Origin: a virus
Reading direction: 5' to 3' (one strand)
Length of the DNA stretch: 22,065 nt
Virus record (IMG/VR): IMGVR_UViG_3300047550_003964
Span: 1 to 22,065 of that record
This document shows positions 2,299-15,601 of this stretch, piece by piece; within the stretch, counting starts at the first letter, position 1, and each line of letters opens with the position of its first letter. A program made the translations under genes and the position numbers. The notes under the pieces are model-generated. The model was given only the letters and a program-made list of their open reading frames with translations, made no database searches and had not been told where the DNA came from.

Positions 2299-4365
2299 TC
2301 ACGACTCAGGTGTCCAAGTCTTAACATCGTGAGCCAAAAAGGTGTTTCGGTGAGAGTAAAGATTCTTCTGACCTGATTGCCTAATTGTCACCGCCCCTTG
2401 AGCTACTAGCGAGTCAAGAGCAACTCTGACCATATCGCTGCCCATTCCTATACCCTCATCTCGAAGTCGCTTCTTGATGTCATTAAAGTTCATCTCGTAG
2501 CCGTGCTTCTCAAGGAAGTTAGAAATCTGCTCCATTCGTTGATCCGCGTTGCTCGTGACAATCGCGCCACCCGATATGGACACAGAAATCCCACCATCAG
2601 GAAGGCTTCGTAGGTTGGCAACGCCGACCGTCTTGGCATCGGGGCAGATGGCACGGACAAAGCCAGGCCTATCCTTGGTGCAAGTTATATCAAGGGCTCC
2701 GTCAATGCCTCTGCCAAATGGCATCGCCACCGACACGGCAAAGGCCGCGCCGTCAATGTCAGCTCTCTTGGCTTGGGCTCCGATGGCATAGTTGCCTCGG
2801 TTGTCCTTTGATTTTGTGACATGGTCGATGGTGAGAATGCCAGCGCCACCGATCCTCAAGGGCTTCAAAATTGTCTGTGAGAAGAAGGTTGCATCCTTAT
2901 TCTTCTCTAAATCTAAGCCCATCAGGTTCATCGCGGCATTGACACCATCAACGACAATGAGGCTCGGTAGGTAGGCCATAATCTCAGTCTTCATCAATTC
3001 GCCAACACCTGCTTCGAGTTTTGAGTCAGGGTTTGCATACCTAAAGAACTTGAACTTATCTGTTGGCACCTTCATTGTCTTTAGGCGATTGAGAATGCCT
3101 CTTGCCGAGTCTTCAAAGTCTAAATAGAAGACGATGTTGTTCTTAGCAAGTTCTTGCCTGATTGCTTCCAATGCGAGCCAAGTCTTACCACTTTCAGATT
3201 CACCGAAGAGGGCATTTATCTTGCCTGCATAGATTAGACAGTTCCCATCCTCTCGTCTAAGCATTGATGGCGCAGGCTCATCTTCTAGTTCTAACTCTTG
3301 AATCTGTTTTGGTATCCAAGAAGACTCAAAAGGTTGACCTTCTTCATCGTGGAGTTGAACTAAGGCAGGTGAGTGAACTTCTAAGGTCTGAAGTTCTTTT
3401 CTTGCCTCGCCGTAGCCTTGCTCACGCAGAGCCTTGGCAGAGGCGGTGAAGTTGCCTTGGTGTTCAACGATAGTGAAGACTGCAAACTTGCTATAACTTC
3501 TCTCAGCTTCAAATTGTGTGCTACTTGAAAAGACATAGAACTTGTCATTGCCGGCGTGATTTGTGGTCGCGCTTATGCCTTCAGACTTGCCTGGTCTTCT
3601 CCAAGAGGTCACACCTGCCTTGTTGGTATAGACCTTTTTCCAACCTAAAGGCTCAAGTATCTGCTCCCAAGTGACTTTGGCGTTGTAATCATCACCAGGA
3701 GTTAAATTGACACCTTTTGGCGCAAGTTCTTCGGTGACAAACTCGACCTTGGGAACTGAATCAAAGGTTTCAAATAATTTGTGTAGTTGGTCGCGCTCGG
3801 CCACCGTCAGTGTCGGGATGCTATTGGCACCGCCAACCAACATCTTCCACGCTCCGCCCGAAGGATGGCAAGAGCCTGCCGATGGCGCGACAATGACAAA
3901 GCCGCCTTCGCCTCTTGTTTCGGCTAGGACATCAATCCCGCCATTTTCTCCTGGCCTTCTTGCAAGTTTGGTGTTGCCAGGCACAATTCCGTCAATGCGA
4001 TAGAGCCAATGAATCCCGCCTGATGGAGTCATCTCCACATAGCCGTTGTTTATCCGATCCCATACATTGCCAAGGCCTGCATTATTTGCCATCTCTTTTA
4101 AGTCAAGGTGCATCTTGTCGGCAACTGCTCTTCCTTCTAGCTCTAGCATCTCAAGATTGCCACTGACTTTTCCGCAGATGACACCGACACCTTCGGCGTT
4201 TGCAAACCAAGAAAGTAATTCTTGCGGGCTTGGCAGGCGTTCTTGATACAACTTCCAATTTGCAAGTGCAGGCCTCTTAGAACCATCAGTTGCAACCGGC
4301 ACCGCACAGATGCCATTGGCAGCGAACTCAAGTCCTGTTCGTAAGATTTCCCCCGTCATTGTCAT
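2299..4365 (-). CDS. PrimPol-helicase (bifunctional primase/polymerase with RecA-like ATPase)
   Basis: The 688-aa replication protein starts with an archaeo-eukaryotic-type Prim-Pol domain (about 10-180): LEMLELEGRA at 71-80 at the first catalytic acid position, GGIHWLYR at 116-123, and GFVIVAPSAGS near 155 followed by HPSG. A linker leads to a RecA-like P-loop ATPase: Walker A GESESGKT (388-395), Walker B LIVVDG (469-474) and a motif-3-like LTIDH (511-515). The last 80 residues form a winged-helix-like domain. Such proteins prime and unwind phage DNA at the fork. The usual first DxD is ExE here. The start at 4365 follows the upstream stop by one base, and the adjacent repeats at 2186-2292 may be its origin. 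Confidence 0.88.
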   Translation of the reverse strand: MTMTGEILRTGLEFAANGICAVPVATDGSKRPALANWKLYQERLPSPQELLSWFANAEGVGVICGKVSGNLEMLELEGRAVADKMHLDLKEMANNAGLGNVWDRINNGYVEMTPSGGIHWLYRIDGIVPGNTKLARRPGENGGIDVLAETRGEGGFVIVAPSAGSCHPSGGAWKMLVGGANSIPTLTVAERDQLHKLFETFDSVPKVEFVTEELAPKGVNLTPGDDYNAKVTWEQILEPLGWKKVYTNKAGVTSWRRPGKSEGISATTNHAGNDKFYVFSSSTQFEAERSYSKFAVFTIVEHQGNFTASAKALREQGYGEARKELQTLEVHSPALVQLHDEEGQPFESSWIPKQIQELELEDEPAPSMLRREDGNCLIYAGKINALFGESESGKTWLALEAIRQELAKNNIVFYLDFEDSARGILNRLKTMKVPTDKFKFFRYANPDSKLEAGVGELMKTEIMAYLPSLIVVDGVNAAMNLMGLDLEKNKDATFFSQTILKPLRIGGAGILTIDHVTKSKDNRGNYAIGAQAKRADIDGAAFAVSVAMPFGRGIDGALDITCTKDRPGFVRAICPDAKTVGVANLRSLPDGGISVSISGGAIVTSNADQRMEQISNFLEKHGYEMNFNDIKKRLRDEGIGMGSDMVRVALDSLVAQGAVTIRQSGQKNLYSHRNTFLAHDVKTWTPES

Positions 4366-8026: not shown

Positions 8027-8398
8027 TCAGTAGTAGTTTTTTTCCTTGAAGTGACTCCAAGCCTTGCAGGGAGTCAGGTGTCGCCTATGGATGTAGGCAA
8101 GTGTTGCCACAAGTTGTGGCACCGATGCCTCGGTGTGTTTCATTCCGAGGTTGCGATAGGTGGCATCGAGCAGTTGCCCAATACCTTTGGCGCTGGAATC
8201 AGGGTTTTTTGCCTCTGCATTCCAGGCTGACTCCTTACCGAGCAATTTCGCCAGGCAGGAATACTCTTTTTTTGTCAGCAATTTCTTCGCCAATTTCTTA
8301 GCATCGACTTGCTGCAAGATAGGTCTTTCTTTGTAAACAATAGATGCAGGAATTGCAGGTTGTGGTGCAAATGCCGCATTCACCAACATTGAAGTCAT
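8027..8398 (-). CDS. SLT-like lytic transglycosylase
   Basis: The 123-aa protein carries the soluble-lytic-transglycosylase fold: catalytic glutamate E56 in LLGKESAWN, the AKGIGQLLDATY motif at about 69-80, a LVATLAYIHRRH helix and a PCKAWSHF end. These enzymes cleave peptidoglycan between MurNAc and GlcNAc. The first 25 residues are hydrophobic and Ala/Pro-rich and may help export, but no clear signal peptide is present. It is unusual to find it among recombination genes rather than with lysis or tail genes. The ATG at 8398 overlaps the WhiB stop (ATGA), with GGAG upstream. It could act in DNA entry or in lysis. Confidence 0.78.
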   Translation of the reverse strand: MTSMLVNAAFAPQPAIPASIVYKERPILQQVDAKKLAKKLLTKKEYSCLAKLLGKESAWNAEAKNPDSSAKGIGQLLDATYRNLGMKHTEASVPQLVATLAYIHRRHLTPCKAWSHFKEKNYY

Positions 8399-9696: not shown

Positions 9697-9862
9697 ATAA
9701 CACCCCTTCTGTTGACTTGCGCTAAGTATGAGGGGAAGGGCTGACACCCTATGCCCGACACGCCGAAACACCGAATGGCTTGTGTATGGACAAAGGTAGG
9801 CACTTAGGCTACTGTTCTCTTATCGGGGCGAAAGGTAGTAGCTCCGAGAAACGGAAAAAGTA
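9697..9862. promoter_or_regulatory. divergent intergenic region between early operon and plus-strand cassette
   Basis: This 166-base gap separates genes pointing away from each other, so promoters for both directions should lie here. For the minus side no convincing -35/-10 pair was found by eye, and the ribosome binding site at 9701-9708 is the only clear signal. A candidate promoter for the plus side is given separately. There is no obvious operator repeat or hairpin. Confidence 0.55.
9787..9815 (+). promoter_or_regulatory. candidate sigma70-type promoter for the plus-strand cassette
   Basis: TGGACA at 9787-9792 (consensus TTGACA, one mismatch) is followed after 17 bases by TACTGT at 9810-9815. 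This -10 keeps the important T1, A2 and T6 positions of TANNNT, the form common in actinobacteria. Transcription would start near 9822 and leave about 40 bases of leader before the ATG at 9863. The match is moderate and chance occurrence is possible. Confidence 0.35.
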
Positions 9863-10177
9863 ATGAATACAGCAGACAGACAAGAAGCAACTCAGATTTA
9901 TTTTTATTTTGAGAATGATGTGACAGAAAAAGATTTGAGAAGCATTGTCAAGAAAGTAGAAACTTTCCGCAAGAATTGTGAATATAACACAACTGTTGCT
10001 TTCTTTATGTCAAGAAATGAAATTCAAGTTGTCGTCACATTTATTGATGTGGATAGACATTTATTTGACCGCACTCGTTCTTCTCTTGGTCGTCTTATTG
10101 ATTCACACAAGCAACCAGCGACTTATGGTTGGAGTCTTGATGTTTCTAATCTTATGAGAGAAAAGGTCAGCGCATAA
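9863..10177 (+). CDS. hypothetical protein of the plus-strand cassette, 104 aa
   Basis: This is the first gene of the only plus-strand block. It is AT-richer than its neighbours by eye. Predicted alternation of strands and helices (QIYFYFEND, a Lys-rich helix, TTVAFFMSRN, IQVVVTFIDVD, then a charged helix) suggests a small alpha/beta fold like a ferredoxin-type sandwich, but no family motif is recognised. The ATG at 9863 has a weak GGAAAAAG upstream. The stop shares one base with the next ATG (TAATG), so it is coupled to the RHH gene. A regulator partner or DNA-binding subunit are possibilities without direct evidence. Confidence 0.6.
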   Translation: MNTADRQEATQIYFYFENDVTEKDLRSIVKKVETFRKNCEYNTTVAFFMSRNEIQVVVTFIDVDRHLFDRTRSSLGRLIDSHKQPATYGWSLDVSNLMREKVSA

Positions 10178-10302
10178 TGAAGAAAATCAGAAGCGTTCGT
10201 GTATCGGATCAACTATGGCGCAAGGCGCAGGCGAAGGCGCGGGCAGAGGGCAAATCATTGTCCGAAGCCATCAACGATTTCTTGAAGGAGTATGTCAAAT
10301 GA
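10177..10302 (+). CDS. ribbon-helix-helix (CopG/Arc-type) protein, 41 aa
   Basis: A short frame fills 10177-10302 exactly: its ATG shares a base with the preceding stop, and its stop overlaps the Prim-Pol start (ATGA, 10299-10302). The protein opens with a basic strand, KKIRSVRVSDQ, continues LWRKAQAKARAEG, and ends SLSEAINDFLKEYVK. This is the ribbon-helix-helix pattern (beta strand, helix, turn, helix) of dimeric DNA-binding regulators. At 41 residues it is a minimal RHH. It probably binds DNA as a dimer and may repress this cassette or the divergent early promoter. No toxin gene is evident beside it. Confidence 0.75.
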   Translation: MKKIRSVRVSDQLWRKAQAKARAEGKSLSEAINDFLKEYVK

Positions 10303-10757
10303 CAACTGCCGAAATCGCCACCGCCTTTGCAAAGCGCGGTTGGTATGTTCTGCCTTGCTATCCACAACAAAAGATTCCATTCTTTCCGATAGCAAAGCAA
10401 GGTTATAAGTCAGCCTCGAATAAACCTGCCACAGTCAAGAAGTGGTTTGAGAAGTCGCCTTTGCTAAACATTGGAATTGCTTGTGCGCCATCAAATCTTG
10501 TGGTCTTTGATATTGACTACCGCAATGGCGGAAGCACCGATGGCTTAGACCTTGACACCTTCACAGTTGAAACAGGTGATGGCTTGCATCTCTACTACAA
10601 GGCACCAATTGGCGCTTCTTTCAAAGGCAAACTGCGCGATGGCGTTGACATCAAGTTCAATGGATATGTTGTCACCGCAGGATCAATGCACGAAAACGGC
10701 AAATTCTATGAAATTGTCAAAGACATTGAGCCTGCCCCTGTGATGGGATGGTGCTAA
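10299..10757 (+). CDS. stand-alone Prim-Pol domain protein, 152 aa
   Basis: The start at ATG 10299 (overlapping the RHH stop) is used; upstream in-frame sequence is the RHH gene in another frame. The protein is a single archaeo-eukaryotic Prim-Pol fold: AKRGWYVLPCYPQQKIP at the N-terminus, the catalytic DxD as VVFDIDYRNGG (D71, D73), GDGLHLYY with H97, then VDIKFNGYVVTAGSMH (117-131). Members synthesise primers and can extend DNA. There is no helicase domain, and the phage already has a PrimPol-helicase on the other strand. It could be a dedicated primase for a second mode of replication, a lesion-bypass enzyme, or a regulator. Confidence 0.82.
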   Translation: MTTAEIATAFAKRGWYVLPCYPQQKIPFFPIAKQGYKSASNKPATVKKWFEKSPLLNIGIACAPSNLVVFDIDYRNGGSTDGLDLDTFTVETGDGLHLYYKAPIGASFKGKLRDGVDIKFNGYVVTAGSMHENGKFYEIVKDIEPAPVMGWC

Positions 10758-10997
10758 ATGAATGGTTGGGATTTGCTTATTGTTTTCTTCACTGCCTTCT
10801 ATGCCTTTGCAATTGGAAGAAACATCTTCTTTTGGGCTTTCCTCTCAGCCTTTTATGGCTTTTGGATTCCACTTCTGATGGTGTTATTTATGCCAAAGCG
10901 CCAACCAAGTGCGGTCATCTTTCCGCAATGGTTTATGGATTGGGCTTCACCTAAATACATCAACCGAACAATCAAGAAGATGGAGCGCGAGTTCTAA
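10758..10997 (+). CDS. two-span membrane protein, 79 aa
   Basis: The ATG follows the Prim-Pol stop with no gap. Two hydrophobic helices (LLIVFFTAFYAFAIG at about 6-20 and FFWAFLSAFYGFWIPLLMVL at about 24-43) are joined by a short RN turn, then a soluble tail ends in basic-acidic IKKMEREF. Aromatic residues are frequent in both helices. No family is recognised. Holin-like, exclusion or membrane-anchor functions are all possible. The stop overlaps, on the opposite strand, the stop of the epimerase gene by four bases (CTAA), leaving no room for a terminator. Confidence 0.6.
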   Translation: MNGWDLLIVFFTAFYAFAIGRNIFFWAFLSAFYGFWIPLLMVLFMPKRQPSAVIFPQWFMDWASPKYINRTIKKMEREF

Positions 10998-11860
10998 ATG
11001 CCTTTCAAGGCTCGGTCAATGCCTTCTTCCAAAGAGATGCGAGGCTCATAGAAGGAGAGCATTTTGCGAGTGTCGCCAACCCGATATGCAACCCCAACAG
11101 GTGCAGTCGGGTTGGTTTTTATTTCAGCCAAATAACCTGCCTGCATCATCACAAGTTCTGCTAATTCAATGAAAGATGTCGCTCTACCTGAGCAGAGATT
11201 AGAAACCTCAACTTTGTTTGTTATTGCCTCAAAGGTAGCTCTTACAATGTCCTCGATGTGGATGAAGTCGCGCACCTGCGTTCCTTTGCCCCAAACATTG
11301 AAAGGCGCTTCCTTTTCTCTGCCTCTCTTGATAAATGAAGGGAATGGATAGTCAAGGCTTTGATCCGTGCCATAGCCTGAAAATGGGCGAAGGATGGTGA
11401 TGTTCAAGCCTTCGGCGCGAGCATAAGAGGCAAGTTTCTCGCCTGATAACTTTGCCCATCCATAGGTCAAATCAGGCGTTCTGATGTGGTCAAGGTTTAT
11501 ATCCCATTCTTTCAACTTCTGTTTGTATTCAGCGCGTTGCAAGAAAATCGGATAGGCAGCAGAGGATGAGAAATAAACTAAATGACCAGGGCGAGTGCGA
11601 AGCGCCCATTGGAATAAGTCGGCATCGATGGCCAAGTCAGAGGCAACTGCCAAAGGATTTCCTTCAATGGTGGCACGGCCACCGACAATGGCCGCGAGAT
11701 GGATGACGACATCAAACTTGGTGTCATCTTTGGCAAAGAAGTCACGGACATCGCGCCCATTCTTTATGTCAATGCCGGTGATTTGGTTGTTCTTGGTATC
11801 AAGATGCTTCTTGAAGTTAGTGCCGACAAAGCCCTCATCGCCTGTTATCAGGATTTTCAT
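10994..11860 (-). CDS. NAD-dependent sugar epimerase/dehydratase (extended SDR)
   Basis: The N-terminal Rossmann motif GDEGFVG (GxxGxxG, 7-13) follows MKILIT. FSSSAAYP near 97-104 supplies the catalytic Ser region, and YGWAK (Y133, K137) is the YxxxK pair. Length (288 aa) and the C-terminal NVWGKGTQVRDFIHIEDI segment are typical of nucleotide-sugar 4-epimerases/dehydratases such as GDP-fucose synthase or GalE relatives. ATG 11860 overlaps the glycosyltransferase stop (ATGA), so it is preferred to an in-frame start nine bases upstream. It likely supplies the sugar nucleotide used by the two glycosyltransferases upstream in the operon. The exact substrate is not determinable from sequence. Confidence 0.87.
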   Translation of the reverse strand: MKILITGDEGFVGTNFKKHLDTKNNQITGIDIKNGRDVRDFFAKDDTKFDVVIHLAAIVGGRATIEGNPLAVASDLAIDADLFQWALRTRPGHLVYFSSSAAYPIFLQRAEYKQKLKEWDINLDHIRTPDLTYGWAKLSGEKLASYARAEGLNITILRPFSGYGTDQSLDYPFPSFIKRGREKEAPFNVWGKGTQVRDFIHIEDIVRATFEAITNKVEVSNLCSGRATSFIELAELVMMQAGYLAEIKTNPTAPVGVAYRVGDTRKMLSFYEPRISLEEGIDRALKGI

Positions 11861-12594
11861 TTCCCCCACCTGTCGCTCTCATACTTATATTTCTCAGTGT
11901 TGGCTTCTGCCAATTGAGCCTCTCGGTCAATCCTAAAGATAAAGCGGTCATTCTCATCAAGAGCTGCGCCTATATGAGAGAGGCGAGTTGGAGCATCAAA
12001 GGCAATGCCTGTTCTAATTGACTTGCCCTCAATAGGTGTGTTGTAAAACGGATCGTGAATAAGAACTGAATCCTTGACCCAAGGATAGATAACTTTTTCA
12101 AGAAATGCTTGGTCTGTGGTGTAGAAGTCGCCAGGGTTATTTTCGGCAATAAGTTCTGCCATATCTCGAAACTTGTAGGTCTTGCCGGCAAACATTCCTG
12201 CGCTTATTGGATAGTTATGACCTGATGGATGGTCTTTGATGATGTGATAATCAAGACCTGATTGCTCCCATTCTTCGTGCGCTATTCGGTCGCGGAAGGA
12301 AAGGCGGGCATCGGCATCACGGCAGATGACCACTTCAAATTGCGGGTCAGAGAAGGCAAGATAACGCCAAAGTTTTGCCGTGTGATTTTCTTGCTCACTC
12401 ATCCTGACAATCTTCACGCCTTTGACAAGATTCAAGGTGCTGATGACCCATTCTTCAACGCTTTGTCCACAATAGAAAACTAAACGAAAGCCATCTTCAA
12501 ATGGAAAATAACGCAAGCCAAGAATTGCGTTCTTGATAGCTCCGATGGTGTAGCGCGGATCATTGCCATAGAGAGAGAATGAAACTGCTCTCAT
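11857..12594 (-). CDS. GT-A-type glycosyltransferase
   Basis: The 245-aa protein has a GT-A layout: an N-terminal strand, MRAVSFSLYGNDPRY, the metal/nucleotide-binding DxD as CRDADAR (D93, D95) after VVI, and an ISAGMFAGK acceptor-side motif. Proteins of this shape often lie with a sugar epimerase and another glycosyltransferase in phage and capsule clusters. The ATG overlaps the next upstream glycosyltransferase stop (ATGA). It probably transfers the sugar nucleotide product of the epimerase to a virion protein, DNA or surface glycan; which one is unknown. Confidence 0.8.
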   Translation of the reverse strand: MRAVSFSLYGNDPRYTIGAIKNAILGLRYFPFEDGFRLVFYCGQSVEEWVISTLNLVKGVKIVRMSEQENHTAKLWRYLAFSDPQFEVVICRDADARLSFRDRIAHEEWEQSGLDYHIIKDHPSGHNYPISAGMFAGKTYKFRDMAELIAENNPGDFYTTDQAFLEKVIYPWVKDSVLIHDPFYNTPIEGKSIRTGIAFDAPTRLSHIGAALDENDRFIFRIDREAQLAEANTEKYKYESDRWGK

Positions 12595-13268
12595 TTCGAC
12601 AAATCTCGCAAGAGAACTTGGTAGTCCTCGCTCTTGATGTAATTGTCATAGACCAAGGCATCGAATGAATACACCTCGCGGGCATTCACGGCGCGATAGC
12701 CTTCATCCCATTCGGCTTTGCCTGCTAAGGGATGGAGATGTTCAATGATTACTTGAGGCAGATAGACAAGATTTCCAAGGTCTTGTCCTAATTGCTTCCA
12801 AAAGTTATCAAGGTATAAGTGGCGAAGTTTCGGTGGCACCATCCCGCCAAGGGCGCTGACAATGGCTTTTGACAACATCACGGCAGTTGGCAAGTTCTCA
12901 CCTTGCAAGAGGTCATTGCCATAAGCCACGCCAGGGGCGCTGCCTATTGCCCTACTCAATGCAATATCCCAATCAGGCGTTCTGAATCTATGGTCATCGC
13001 CAATAAAGGTGAAAAAGTCATATTCATTGACATACTTCTTGGCAGCGACATTGACAGGATAAGCCATACCCCGTGTGGTATTTTCAATTTCTAGGATGTA
13101 TTCAACACCGACCGAGCTTCGATAATTGACTATCTCATCATCATCTTTGTCAACAACAAAGAGCAAATCAGAGCGACAAGAAAACTCTCTATGTGCTTGC
13201 AATACTTCAACTGCATTCTTTGGCCTGCCTCTAGTTGGCACAAGCACTAGGTTATTTTTCTGAATCAT
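12591..13268 (-). CDS. GT-A-type (family 2-like) glycosyltransferase
   Basis: Starting at ATG 13268 (GGGGA six bases upstream; the ATG at 13280 lacks one), the protein begins NLVLVPTRGRPKNAVEVLQA, the nucleotide-binding strand of GT2 enzymes. It has VDKDDDE near 40 and IGDDHRF (D91, D92) as the metal-binding acidic pair. The second half contains an acceptor-binding region with YLDNFW and IIEHLHP. It overlaps the DUF6378 gene by 17 bases. Together with the other two cassette members it is likely to build a short glycan; substrate unknown. Confidence 0.82.
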   Translation of the reverse strand: MIQKNNLVLVPTRGRPKNAVEVLQAHREFSCRSDLLFVVDKDDDEIVNYRSSVGVEYILEIENTTRGMAYPVNVAAKKYVNEYDFFTFIGDDHRFRTPDWDIALSRAIGSAPGVAYGNDLLQGENLPTAVMLSKAIVSALGGMVPPKLRHLYLDNFWKQLGQDLGNLVYLPQVIIEHLHPLAGKAEWDEGYRAVNAREVYSFDALVYDNYIKSEDYQVLLRDLSK

Positions 13269-13521
13269 TGATTTCCCCATAAATAGCGGTGTAAGCCGCC
13301 AAGTCGATGATGCTATCTAGGTGGTCAGGTGTTTCTATCAGCCGAGCAATTTTCACAAGGCATAAACACAAAGCGACCTGTGAAGGGCTTATCTCAGTTT
13401 CAAGATAAACACTCCACAGGTCTGCGATGCGTTTGTGATTTATGTAAGGGTCGCCATAAATACTTTGACGATCCGTTGCGGTGAGGCGTTTGGCCTCATC
13501 CAAAATCTTCCCCCGATTCAT
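13252..13521 (-). CDS. DUF6378 family protein
   Basis: The preferred start is ATG 13521 (GAG just upstream), five bases after the holin-like gene ends; the open frame extends further back within that gene. The 89-aa protein shows the family's pattern ILDEAKRLTATDRQSIYGDP, then LWSVYL, LCLCLVKIARL and LDSIIDLAAYTAIYG. The conserved KIAR and D-x-x-ID-x-AAY residues resemble the helical phosphohydrolase-like MazG relatives that might act on nucleotides, but no activity is established. It sits between the lysis and glycan genes, away from replication genes. Confidence 0.7.
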   Translation of the reverse strand: MNRGKILDEAKRLTATDRQSIYGDPYINHKRIADLWSVYLETEISPSQVALCLCLVKIARLIETPDHLDSIIDLAAYTAIYGEINDSEK

Positions 13522-14770: not shown

Positions 14771-15601
14771 TTACTTAATTTTTGCCACAGGTTTCAAGAA
14801 ATCTAACGCATTTGCGTATTTTTCTTTTATGTAATCAGATAGAACGCTAATGTCTTTATTGTTTGTTTCTAAAACAGGTTTAACAGCGTGCATTTGGTCA
14901 ATCCCAAACACATTGATTTCGTTTGGCATTGGTTCCCATATCAAATCATCAAACCAATGTTGAAATCTTGGAATGCCAAGAAAGTCATATAATTGATTCA
15001 TAGTTTGATTAGGTTGCAATAATAAATCGTCATACAGAACAAAATGAAATTTATCTTTGTGCTTTGGTTCTAATGCACTTGCAAGAGAAAAAATGTTATG
15101 TTGTAAGCCAAGTTCATCACTCATCAAAGCATCACAACGAGCATCGTTCAAAGGTCTGTAATATCCCGATGGAGTGTTTGTCAGCAATTTGTCAATAAAA
15201 TTATTAGGATTTTTTTCTGCCAACCGAACAAAAGAAGCAAGTATTTCCAAAATGGGCCGCACTGGGCAAATAATTTTTACATTATCACTCAATAAGTCCA
15301 GCAACTTTATGTTGTCTATTGTTCCCCAAGTGCGGTTTTTATCTATAACATATTTTTTTGGAGTGTTAATGTAAAAATTATTTGGCATCTGCCGCAAAAG
15401 ATTTATATAACCCTCTGTGTTGTAGCCTGATTGGAATGACTCTGATTTTTGCGTTTCGTGATAAATGCTCAGCATCATTCTAGGAAAATCTGTCTGCGGC
15501 CCTGAATAAACATCAGGATTTTGGTTCAAAATAGCAGACAACAAAGTGCTACCCGAACGGGGCAGACCCGCCATAAAGAAAAAAGTCTTGTTTTTATTCA
15601 C
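14771..15601 (-). CDS. sulfotransferase-family protein
   Basis: The 276-aa protein has the PAPS-binding P-loop-like motif FFMAGLPRSGSTLLSAIL (8-25) and a 3'-phosphate site PVRPILEILASF near 113-124 (R115, S123), followed by a helical domain. Sulfotransferases move sulfate from PAPS to an acceptor hydroxyl. The DNA is clearly AT-richer than its neighbours, GTG 15601 has no good binding site, and the function is not a normal phage module, so it may be a late acquisition (moron). It sits between tail genes and the structural-type 86-aa gene, so a virion or host surface glycan could be the acceptor; inference. Confidence 0.82.
   Translation of the reverse strand: MNKNKTFFFMAGLPRSGSTLLSAILNQNPDVYSGPQTDFPRMMLSIYHETQKSESFQSGYNTEGYINLLRQMPNNFYINTPKKYVIDKNRTWGTIDNIKLLDLLSDNVKIICPVRPILEILASFVRLAEKNPNNFIDKLLTNTPSGYYRPLNDARCDALMSDELGLQHNIFSLASALEPKHKDKFHFVLYDDLLLQPNQTMNQLYDFLGIPRFQHWFDDLIWEPMPNEINVFGIDQMHAVKPVLETNNKDISVLSDYIKEKYANALDFLKPVAKIK

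Follow-up and report, generated by a model that had tools for sequence, protein, structure and literature searches.

Arbiol et al. reportedly described, in 2010, the PeSLs of T4-type phages, mobile regulatory cassettes in which a promoter and a stem-loop are repeated between genes. In cluster K mycobacteriophages, many unrelated small genes carry upstream of their start a conserved sequence, SAS (GGGATAGGAGCCC), which perhaps has a role in translation (PMC3203893). In acr-aca operons, the variable anti-CRISPR genes are followed by the gene of a regulator, which acts on repeats to repress the promoter (PMC9410906). In pRN1, the CopG protein encoded by orf56 has been proposed to bind its own promoter, and orf56 is co-transcribed with orf904 (PMC3869888). 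The helix bundle of ORF904 and of the NrS-1 PrimPol is required for priming, not for extension (PMC8718748).

The locus described here lies in a window of 22,065 nt, which is the whole stretch of viral DNA that was analyzed (IMG/VR record IMGVR_UViG_3300047550_003964). Positions 9863-10997 form the only plus-strand block of this 22-kb virus record; every other plausible gene is on the minus strand. The initial annotation had described four coupled genes in this lone block, and its coordinates and the coupling of g22-g25 hold: g22 and g23 overlap as TAATG, g23 and g24 overlap as ATGA, g24 and g25 abut (TAA followed directly by ATG), and the 3' end of g25 reaches 4 nt into the convergent gene g26. 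The gene identities hold as well: g23 (RHH) and g24 (Prim-Pol) have profile matches, g25 has hydrophobic segments, and g24 is indeed a second Prim-Pol, alongside the PrimPol-helicase encoded by g08 (2299-4365, minus strand). The proposal of an inverted, independently controlled unit is supported: the block has its own conserved promoter and leader, which point away from the early operon. The features of the region are the following.

9717-9735, no strand assigned: conserved intergenic block, TTGTGGATAAGTATGAGGGG in many relatives, adjoining the start of the leftward operon
9757-9767, no strand assigned: GACACGCCGAA, a motif conserved in the divergent control region
9784-9804, plus strand: tandem repeat GTATGGACA-N3-GTATGGACA with a 12-bp pitch, overlapping the -35, putative RHH operator
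9787-9815, plus strand: sigma-70-like promoter, TGGACA - 17 nt - TACTGT, recognized by conservation
9823-9847, plus strand: 5'-leader RNA hairpin with a 7-bp stem and a GAAAGGUAGUA loop, covarying across relatives
9853-9862, plus strand: ribosome-binding region of the leader, preceding the first slot gene
9863-10177, plus strand: g22, slot gene (exchangeable cassette) of 104 aa with 35% GC, belonging to no known family
10162-10179, plus strand: cassette junction AAAGGTCAGCGCATAATG (consensus AAAGGTAGGTGCATAATG), holding the last codons and stop of g22 and the ribosome-binding site and ATG of g23
10177-10302, plus strand: g23, ribbon-helix-helix (RHH) protein, 41 aa, constant member of the tail, predicted autorepressor
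10299-10757, plus strand: g24, stand-alone Prim-Pol (AEP) catalytic domain, 152 aa, lineage-specific
10758-10997, plus strand: g25, predicted membrane protein, 79 aa, hydrophobic segments, a common, not universal, tail gene

The block is probably a divergent accessory-gene operon with exchangeable cassettes, a constant promoter and hairpin, and an RHH autorepressor. A constant sigma-70-like promoter with operator-like tandem repeats, together with a 5' RNA hairpin, would drive a slot of small genes; the junction which tends to end each slot gene and to start the next would allow genes to be swapped with translation unbroken; the RHH protein would most likely bind the tandem repeats and close the promoter after an early burst of expression; Prim-Pol and the membrane protein would be tail genes retained in the clade of the window. 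No described equivalent of this combination, actinophages included, was found in the literature searched, which is no proof of novelty.

A search with g24 gave 80 viral loci (72-99% identity), a set that later searches widened; the overall comparison covers about 90 relatives. In nearly all of the 80 relatives reaching the region, the RHH and Prim-Pol genes are at the same place and on the same strand, mostly with the same 4-nt overlap, and are flanked by minus-strand g15-g21 and g26-g29. The median dN/dS values (0.12 for Prim-Pol, 0.21 for RHH and 0.12 for the membrane protein) indicate purifying selection. The shared place and strand, together with this selection, therefore put the RHH-Prim-Pol arrangement beyond chance. 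The four-gene set which the initial annotation had singled out is not itself a conserved unit, however: g22 is the only slot gene of the window phage and is missing from 80 of the 80 Prim-Pol relatives, which carry other small plus-strand ORFs in its place. Judged from sequence, the block is made of three layers across relatives: a constant promoter and leader, a hypervariable slot, and a tail of which RHH is the constant member. By the same comparison, the leader and RHH are the most constant, followed by Prim-Pol and g25; sampling the relatives by g19 rather than by Prim-Pol gives a fairer view of the tail genes.

The slot usually holds one to six small, mostly unannotated ORFs, from about 50 families which are shuffled among phages (55 clusters were counted, but a few of them, namely c6, c12 in part, c17 and c28, are frames running through the leader, and about 50 is the fairer count; slot genes were read by hand at three loci of the clade comprising L015 and L020-L025). 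The gap between the leftward genes and RHH, control region included, is about 0.3-1.8 kb. The slot genes have a median length of 65 aa and a GC content of 39%, against 46.5% for the loci. Family c1 is followed by ten kinds of neighbour and c3 is preceded by six, and the slot of L089 is empty, RHH coming directly after the leader. The possibility that the slot contains tandem RHH copies was rejected (there is one RHH per locus). Comparison of ten slot proteins with Pfam and PHROG gave no convincing family, and no annotated function, anti-CRISPR included, was found among the slot proteins tested.

Homologues of g22 are present in L159 (64%, at the DNA level) and in L223-L226 (47-67%, tblastn). 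The homologue is the first gene behind the leader in L159 and L224; the homologues are followed by genes other than RHH and have the same type of junction at their ends. Since they occupy the slots of other phages, with junction ends, g22 belongs among the slot genes. The same slot families, with the same junction, are also present in several contigs whose genomes are organised differently. Slot families and junctions in such differing settings were seen in L225, L232, L243, L252, L266, L290 and L292; in L225 the slot families seem to begin an operon that also includes a likely exonuclease. Another, smaller site of variation lies between RHH and Prim-Pol, where L002, L011, L034, L042, L049, L092 and L096 have extra genes of 42-51 aa.

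Unrelated slot genes share an 18-nt end, AAAGGNNGGTGCATAATG, in which their final codons and stop are combined with the ribosome-binding site and ATG of the gene that follows. It has the form AAAGG-YN-GGTGCATAATG and codes for ...K-V/A-G-A-stop, the stop overlapping the next ATG; AGG/AGGTG is likely the ribosome-binding site. The junction of the window is a mild variant of the consensus. Slot DNA, 85,768 nt in all, contains the 11-nt core GGTGCATAATG 74 times (copies which come from related loci and hence are not independent), and the 886,151 nt elsewhere do not contain it once on either strand; about 0.02 and 0.42 copies, respectively, would be expected. When up to four mismatches to the 18-mer are allowed, 30 of the 55 slot clusters have a match (16 clusters with none or one), whereas the best match among control gene families of the same genomes has six. 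Identity among different slot families is 0.51 at the junction, compared to about 0.27 on either side. An exact search of viral contigs for 16 nt of the junction gave at least 120 stretches, some tens of which are possibly due to chance by rough arithmetic.

The points where similarity breaks coincide with the first ATG and with the junction. L002 and L003 have leaders that are 97.8% identical up to the first ATG, then two unrelated genes, and are again 97% identical from the junction that precedes the third; the breakpoints of L007 and L044 follow a similar pattern. It is conceivable, though short of probable, that the slot is an integrase-free cassette system, in which small early genes would move among phage families by recombination at the 18-nt junction, under a constant leader and an RHH autorepressor. 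In the comparison with integrons, a tyrosine-recombinase match (PF00589) was found in 2 of 15 long records, outside the slot. Alternatively, the junction could be selected for translation alone, as a convergent translational-coupling signal of highly expressed small genes, the slot varying by illegitimate recombination at a tolerant spot. Such a signal would account for the AGG/AGGTG near the ATG and the stop-start overlap inside the junction, and some exchanged slot genes do lack the junction. But none of the other gene boundaries in these genomes has the junction, not even the 162 TAATG overlaps, similarity returns at the junction past the exchanged genes, and the junction is common to several phage families, which makes coupling as the sole explanation rather unlikely. 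The exchange of cassettes would show how a freshwater phage operon stays translatable while its genes are replaced.

Like SAS, the junction is a short conserved sequence at the starts of unrelated small genes. It differs from SAS in that it reads AAAGGTAGGTGCATAATG rather than GGGATAGGAGCCC, also codes for the end and stop of the preceding protein, lies within one operon, and coincides with breakpoints. The block also resembles the PeSLs by a conserved regulatory element with a stem-loop and by shuffled small early genes; in contrast to the PeSLs as reportedly described, it has one promoter and hairpin, at its head, and only the junction is repeated. The combination of leader, AAAGGNNGGTGCATAATG and RHH provides a searchable rule for such slots, which together are a large reservoir of small, unstudied phage genes.

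The leader, promoter and hairpin are constant ahead of about 20 different first genes. In most relatives the promoter reads TTGACA/TGGACA-17-TAYTGT, with TTGACA in many. A consensus promoter/terminator scan of the window was uninformative and made no promoter call at 9787-9815. The hairpin is supported by covariation: 92% of the cells are paired, compared to at most 62% when the register is slid, and four pairs are changed on both sides. Both-side changes occur in 13 cells versus 4.4 in shuffles, and none of 500 shuffles reached the both-side count or the covariation score. More distant relatives have hairpins of different sequence at the same position of the leader. A search of Rfam gave no match.

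g23 matches the Pfam RHH_1 profile just above the cut-off (20.8 versus 20.5 bits) and the Arc-like repressor family phrog_6506 (8.7e-12). The conserved tandem repeats lying over the -35 are its putative operator. The tandem repeat is the best such site of its own locus in 80 of 89 loci, and scores 18/18 in L178 and L182; the window copy is weak (15/18, versus 14 elsewhere within the window). Both the repeat (GCATGGGCA/GCATGGATA) and the ribbon of the RHH protein (KKNRSVRIAEQ) are altered in the clade comprising L015 and L020-L025, a single co-change that is suggestive.

RHH is present without Prim-Pol in L178-L184, L224, L257 and others, so Prim-Pol was rejected as its universal partner. L178-L184 keep the leader, the slot and RHH (63%), have no Prim-Pol and, where the records reach, encode the PrimPol-helicase only; in L178-L183, a terminator-like hairpin lies directly 3' of RHH (in those read, an inverted repeat rich in GC and then a T-rich tail). 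L224 and L259 have RHH and g25 without Prim-Pol, and g25 is missing from part of the Prim-Pol clade. The initial annotation had suggested an accessory replication system; as the essence of the block this is unsupported, given that the promoter, the slot and RHH are retained in related lineages that have no Prim-Pol. The loci that lack Prim-Pol fall in at least two places on the resolvase tree, and these scattered positions indicate that Prim-Pol has been gained or lost more than once.

In the clade of the window, the Prim-Pol is intact and conserved, and not inactive and variable as the initial annotation had considered it might prove, nor is the cassette absent there. g24 matches the Pfam Prim-Pol family (PF09250) with 95.5 bits, well above the curated cut-off of 22.8 (5.9e-27). 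Its metal-binding residues D71, D73 and H97 are invariant, and D117 is at least 90% conserved, in 21 sequences down to 30% identity. An AF2 model, built with distant relatives added, has the AEP fold with a pLDDT of 94.5 (12 close sequences alone gave 54.9). A Foldseek search of the PDB retrieved 1rni (1.4e-06) and NrS-1 6jop (2.3e-03), so that pRN1 ORF904 and the NrS-1 PrimPol are the nearest solved structures. The protein is 150-152 aa long in every relative measured; it ends where the catalytic domain ends and has no helix bundle. Extension, or priming that depends on a partner, is therefore expected. From sequence and model, g24 is most likely a real AEP with intact catalytic residues, which would extend primers or prime only with a partner, and its strong conservation suggests that it does more than ride along. 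Other Prim-Pols without helicase are gp96 of Gordonia phage Rabbitrun (238 aa), gp94 of Mycobacterium phage Nebkiss (218 aa) and BFVD A0A6J5PXQ9 (170 aa); the first two are 34-36% identical to g24, are longer, and have no RHH gene annotated beside them. g24 supplies a naturally minimal Prim-Pol domain with which the contribution of the helix bundle can be tested.

The first metal motif of the PrimPol-helicase g08 is ELE (LEMLELEG) and not D-x-D/E. This could mean that the Prim-Pol is the point of the operon, as a catalytic subunit acting in trans for g08, with RHH and the membrane protein regulating or localising it. Indeed, g24 keeps D-x-D, H and D while g08 reads ELE throughout, and the two Prim-Pols occur together in 13 of the 13 long records that reach both. 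However, the motif NLE(M/L)LELEG is found in nearly all relatives readable there, with or without a stand-alone Prim-Pol. ELE is unchanged in L220-L222, where the stand-alone Prim-Pol is absent and no helper is needed, so that a role of g24 as helper for a dead g08 is unsupported. A subunit in trans also leaves the slot and its junctions unexplained, and we regard it as unlikely.

The RHH-Prim-Pol pair recalls pRN1, in which an RHH gene lies directly upstream of, and in the same orientation as, a PrimPol gene with the same AEP fold (PMC3869888). The pair could be a captured plasmid-type copy-control and replication module, in which RHH would control its own operon and Prim-Pol would start replication from an origin close to the divergent promoter. 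The RHH gene immediately preceding and overlapping Prim-Pol, the nearest solved fold being that of ORF904, and the proposed autoregulation of orf56 would all fit. The stretch from g21 to the first slot gene contains, in relatives, a shared TAAGTATGAGGGG block that often includes a DnaA-box-like TTATCCACA, which is perfect in L014, L062 and other loci and is possibly an origin or a host-factor site; in the window it is degenerate (9717-9725). In addition, ORF904 has a helicase part and a helix bundle, whereas g24 is a single 152-aa domain that some lineages lack. At least two lineages have kept RHH in the absence of Prim-Pol, and all informative genomes already have the PrimPol-helicase g08. 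No close relative of the Prim-Pol was found in plasmids, and an origin in plasmids or bacterial genomes was rejected, the relatives there being only distant (less than 40% identity). Of the captured plasmid-like element proposed in the initial annotation, the parallel with orf56-orf904 stands, but the block has neither the helicase domain nor a known origin; such a capture is quite improbable.

RHH proteins are often antitoxins. A defence, superinfection-exclusion or toxin-antitoxin module would use such a protein, and a membrane protein with variable genes fits exclusion modules; yet PADLOC found no match in g22-g25, and no constant toxin partner adjoins RHH. A module of this kind is very unlikely. 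The accessory operon with exchangeable cassettes is closer to the acr-aca operons (PMC9410906), with which it shares a sigma-70-like promoter of its own with core repeats, variable small genes and a constant downstream DNA-binding protein. Unlike the block, in which the protein is an RHH and the repeats are direct and in tandem, the operons described there use HTH Aca proteins and inverted repeats; the block further has a hairpin in the leader, junctions shared between genes, and additional tail genes. It is therefore not a member of the acr-aca class, though by analogy it may work alike. The slot genes may serve host takeover or counter-defence, which the variable-slot architecture makes more likely than defence or exclusion. 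They are likely candidates for such functions against hard-to-culture hosts, probably Actinobacteria. Strains of 'Ca. Nanopelagicales' have no CRISPR (PMC10202952), which is relevant if such bacteria are the hosts.

The host is probably actinobacterial, as the gene content suggests: g18 encodes a WhiB protein, the Holliday-junction resolvase g19 is most like those of Streptomyces and Cutibacterium phages, and g08 resembles Arthrobacter phage proteins. Comparison of the window DNA with named phages gave no match. Some members of the group may be temperate, a tyrosine integrase being encoded in two of the 15 long records, the contigs of L029 (G015:6704-7153) and L057 (G004:13320-13712).

Other genes of the window also deserve mention. 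Within the leftward early operon, and away from the lysis genes, g17 (8027-8398, minus strand) is an SLT transglycosylase-like gene. Convergent with the block, g26-g28 (10994-13280, minus strand) encode an NAD-dependent epimerase, an unannotated protein and a possible glycosyltransferase (weak TAGT match). Further on, g33 (14771-15601, minus strand) belongs to the Sulfotransferase family (Sulfotransfer_3, 1e-17) and, with 35% GC, is probably a recent acquisition.
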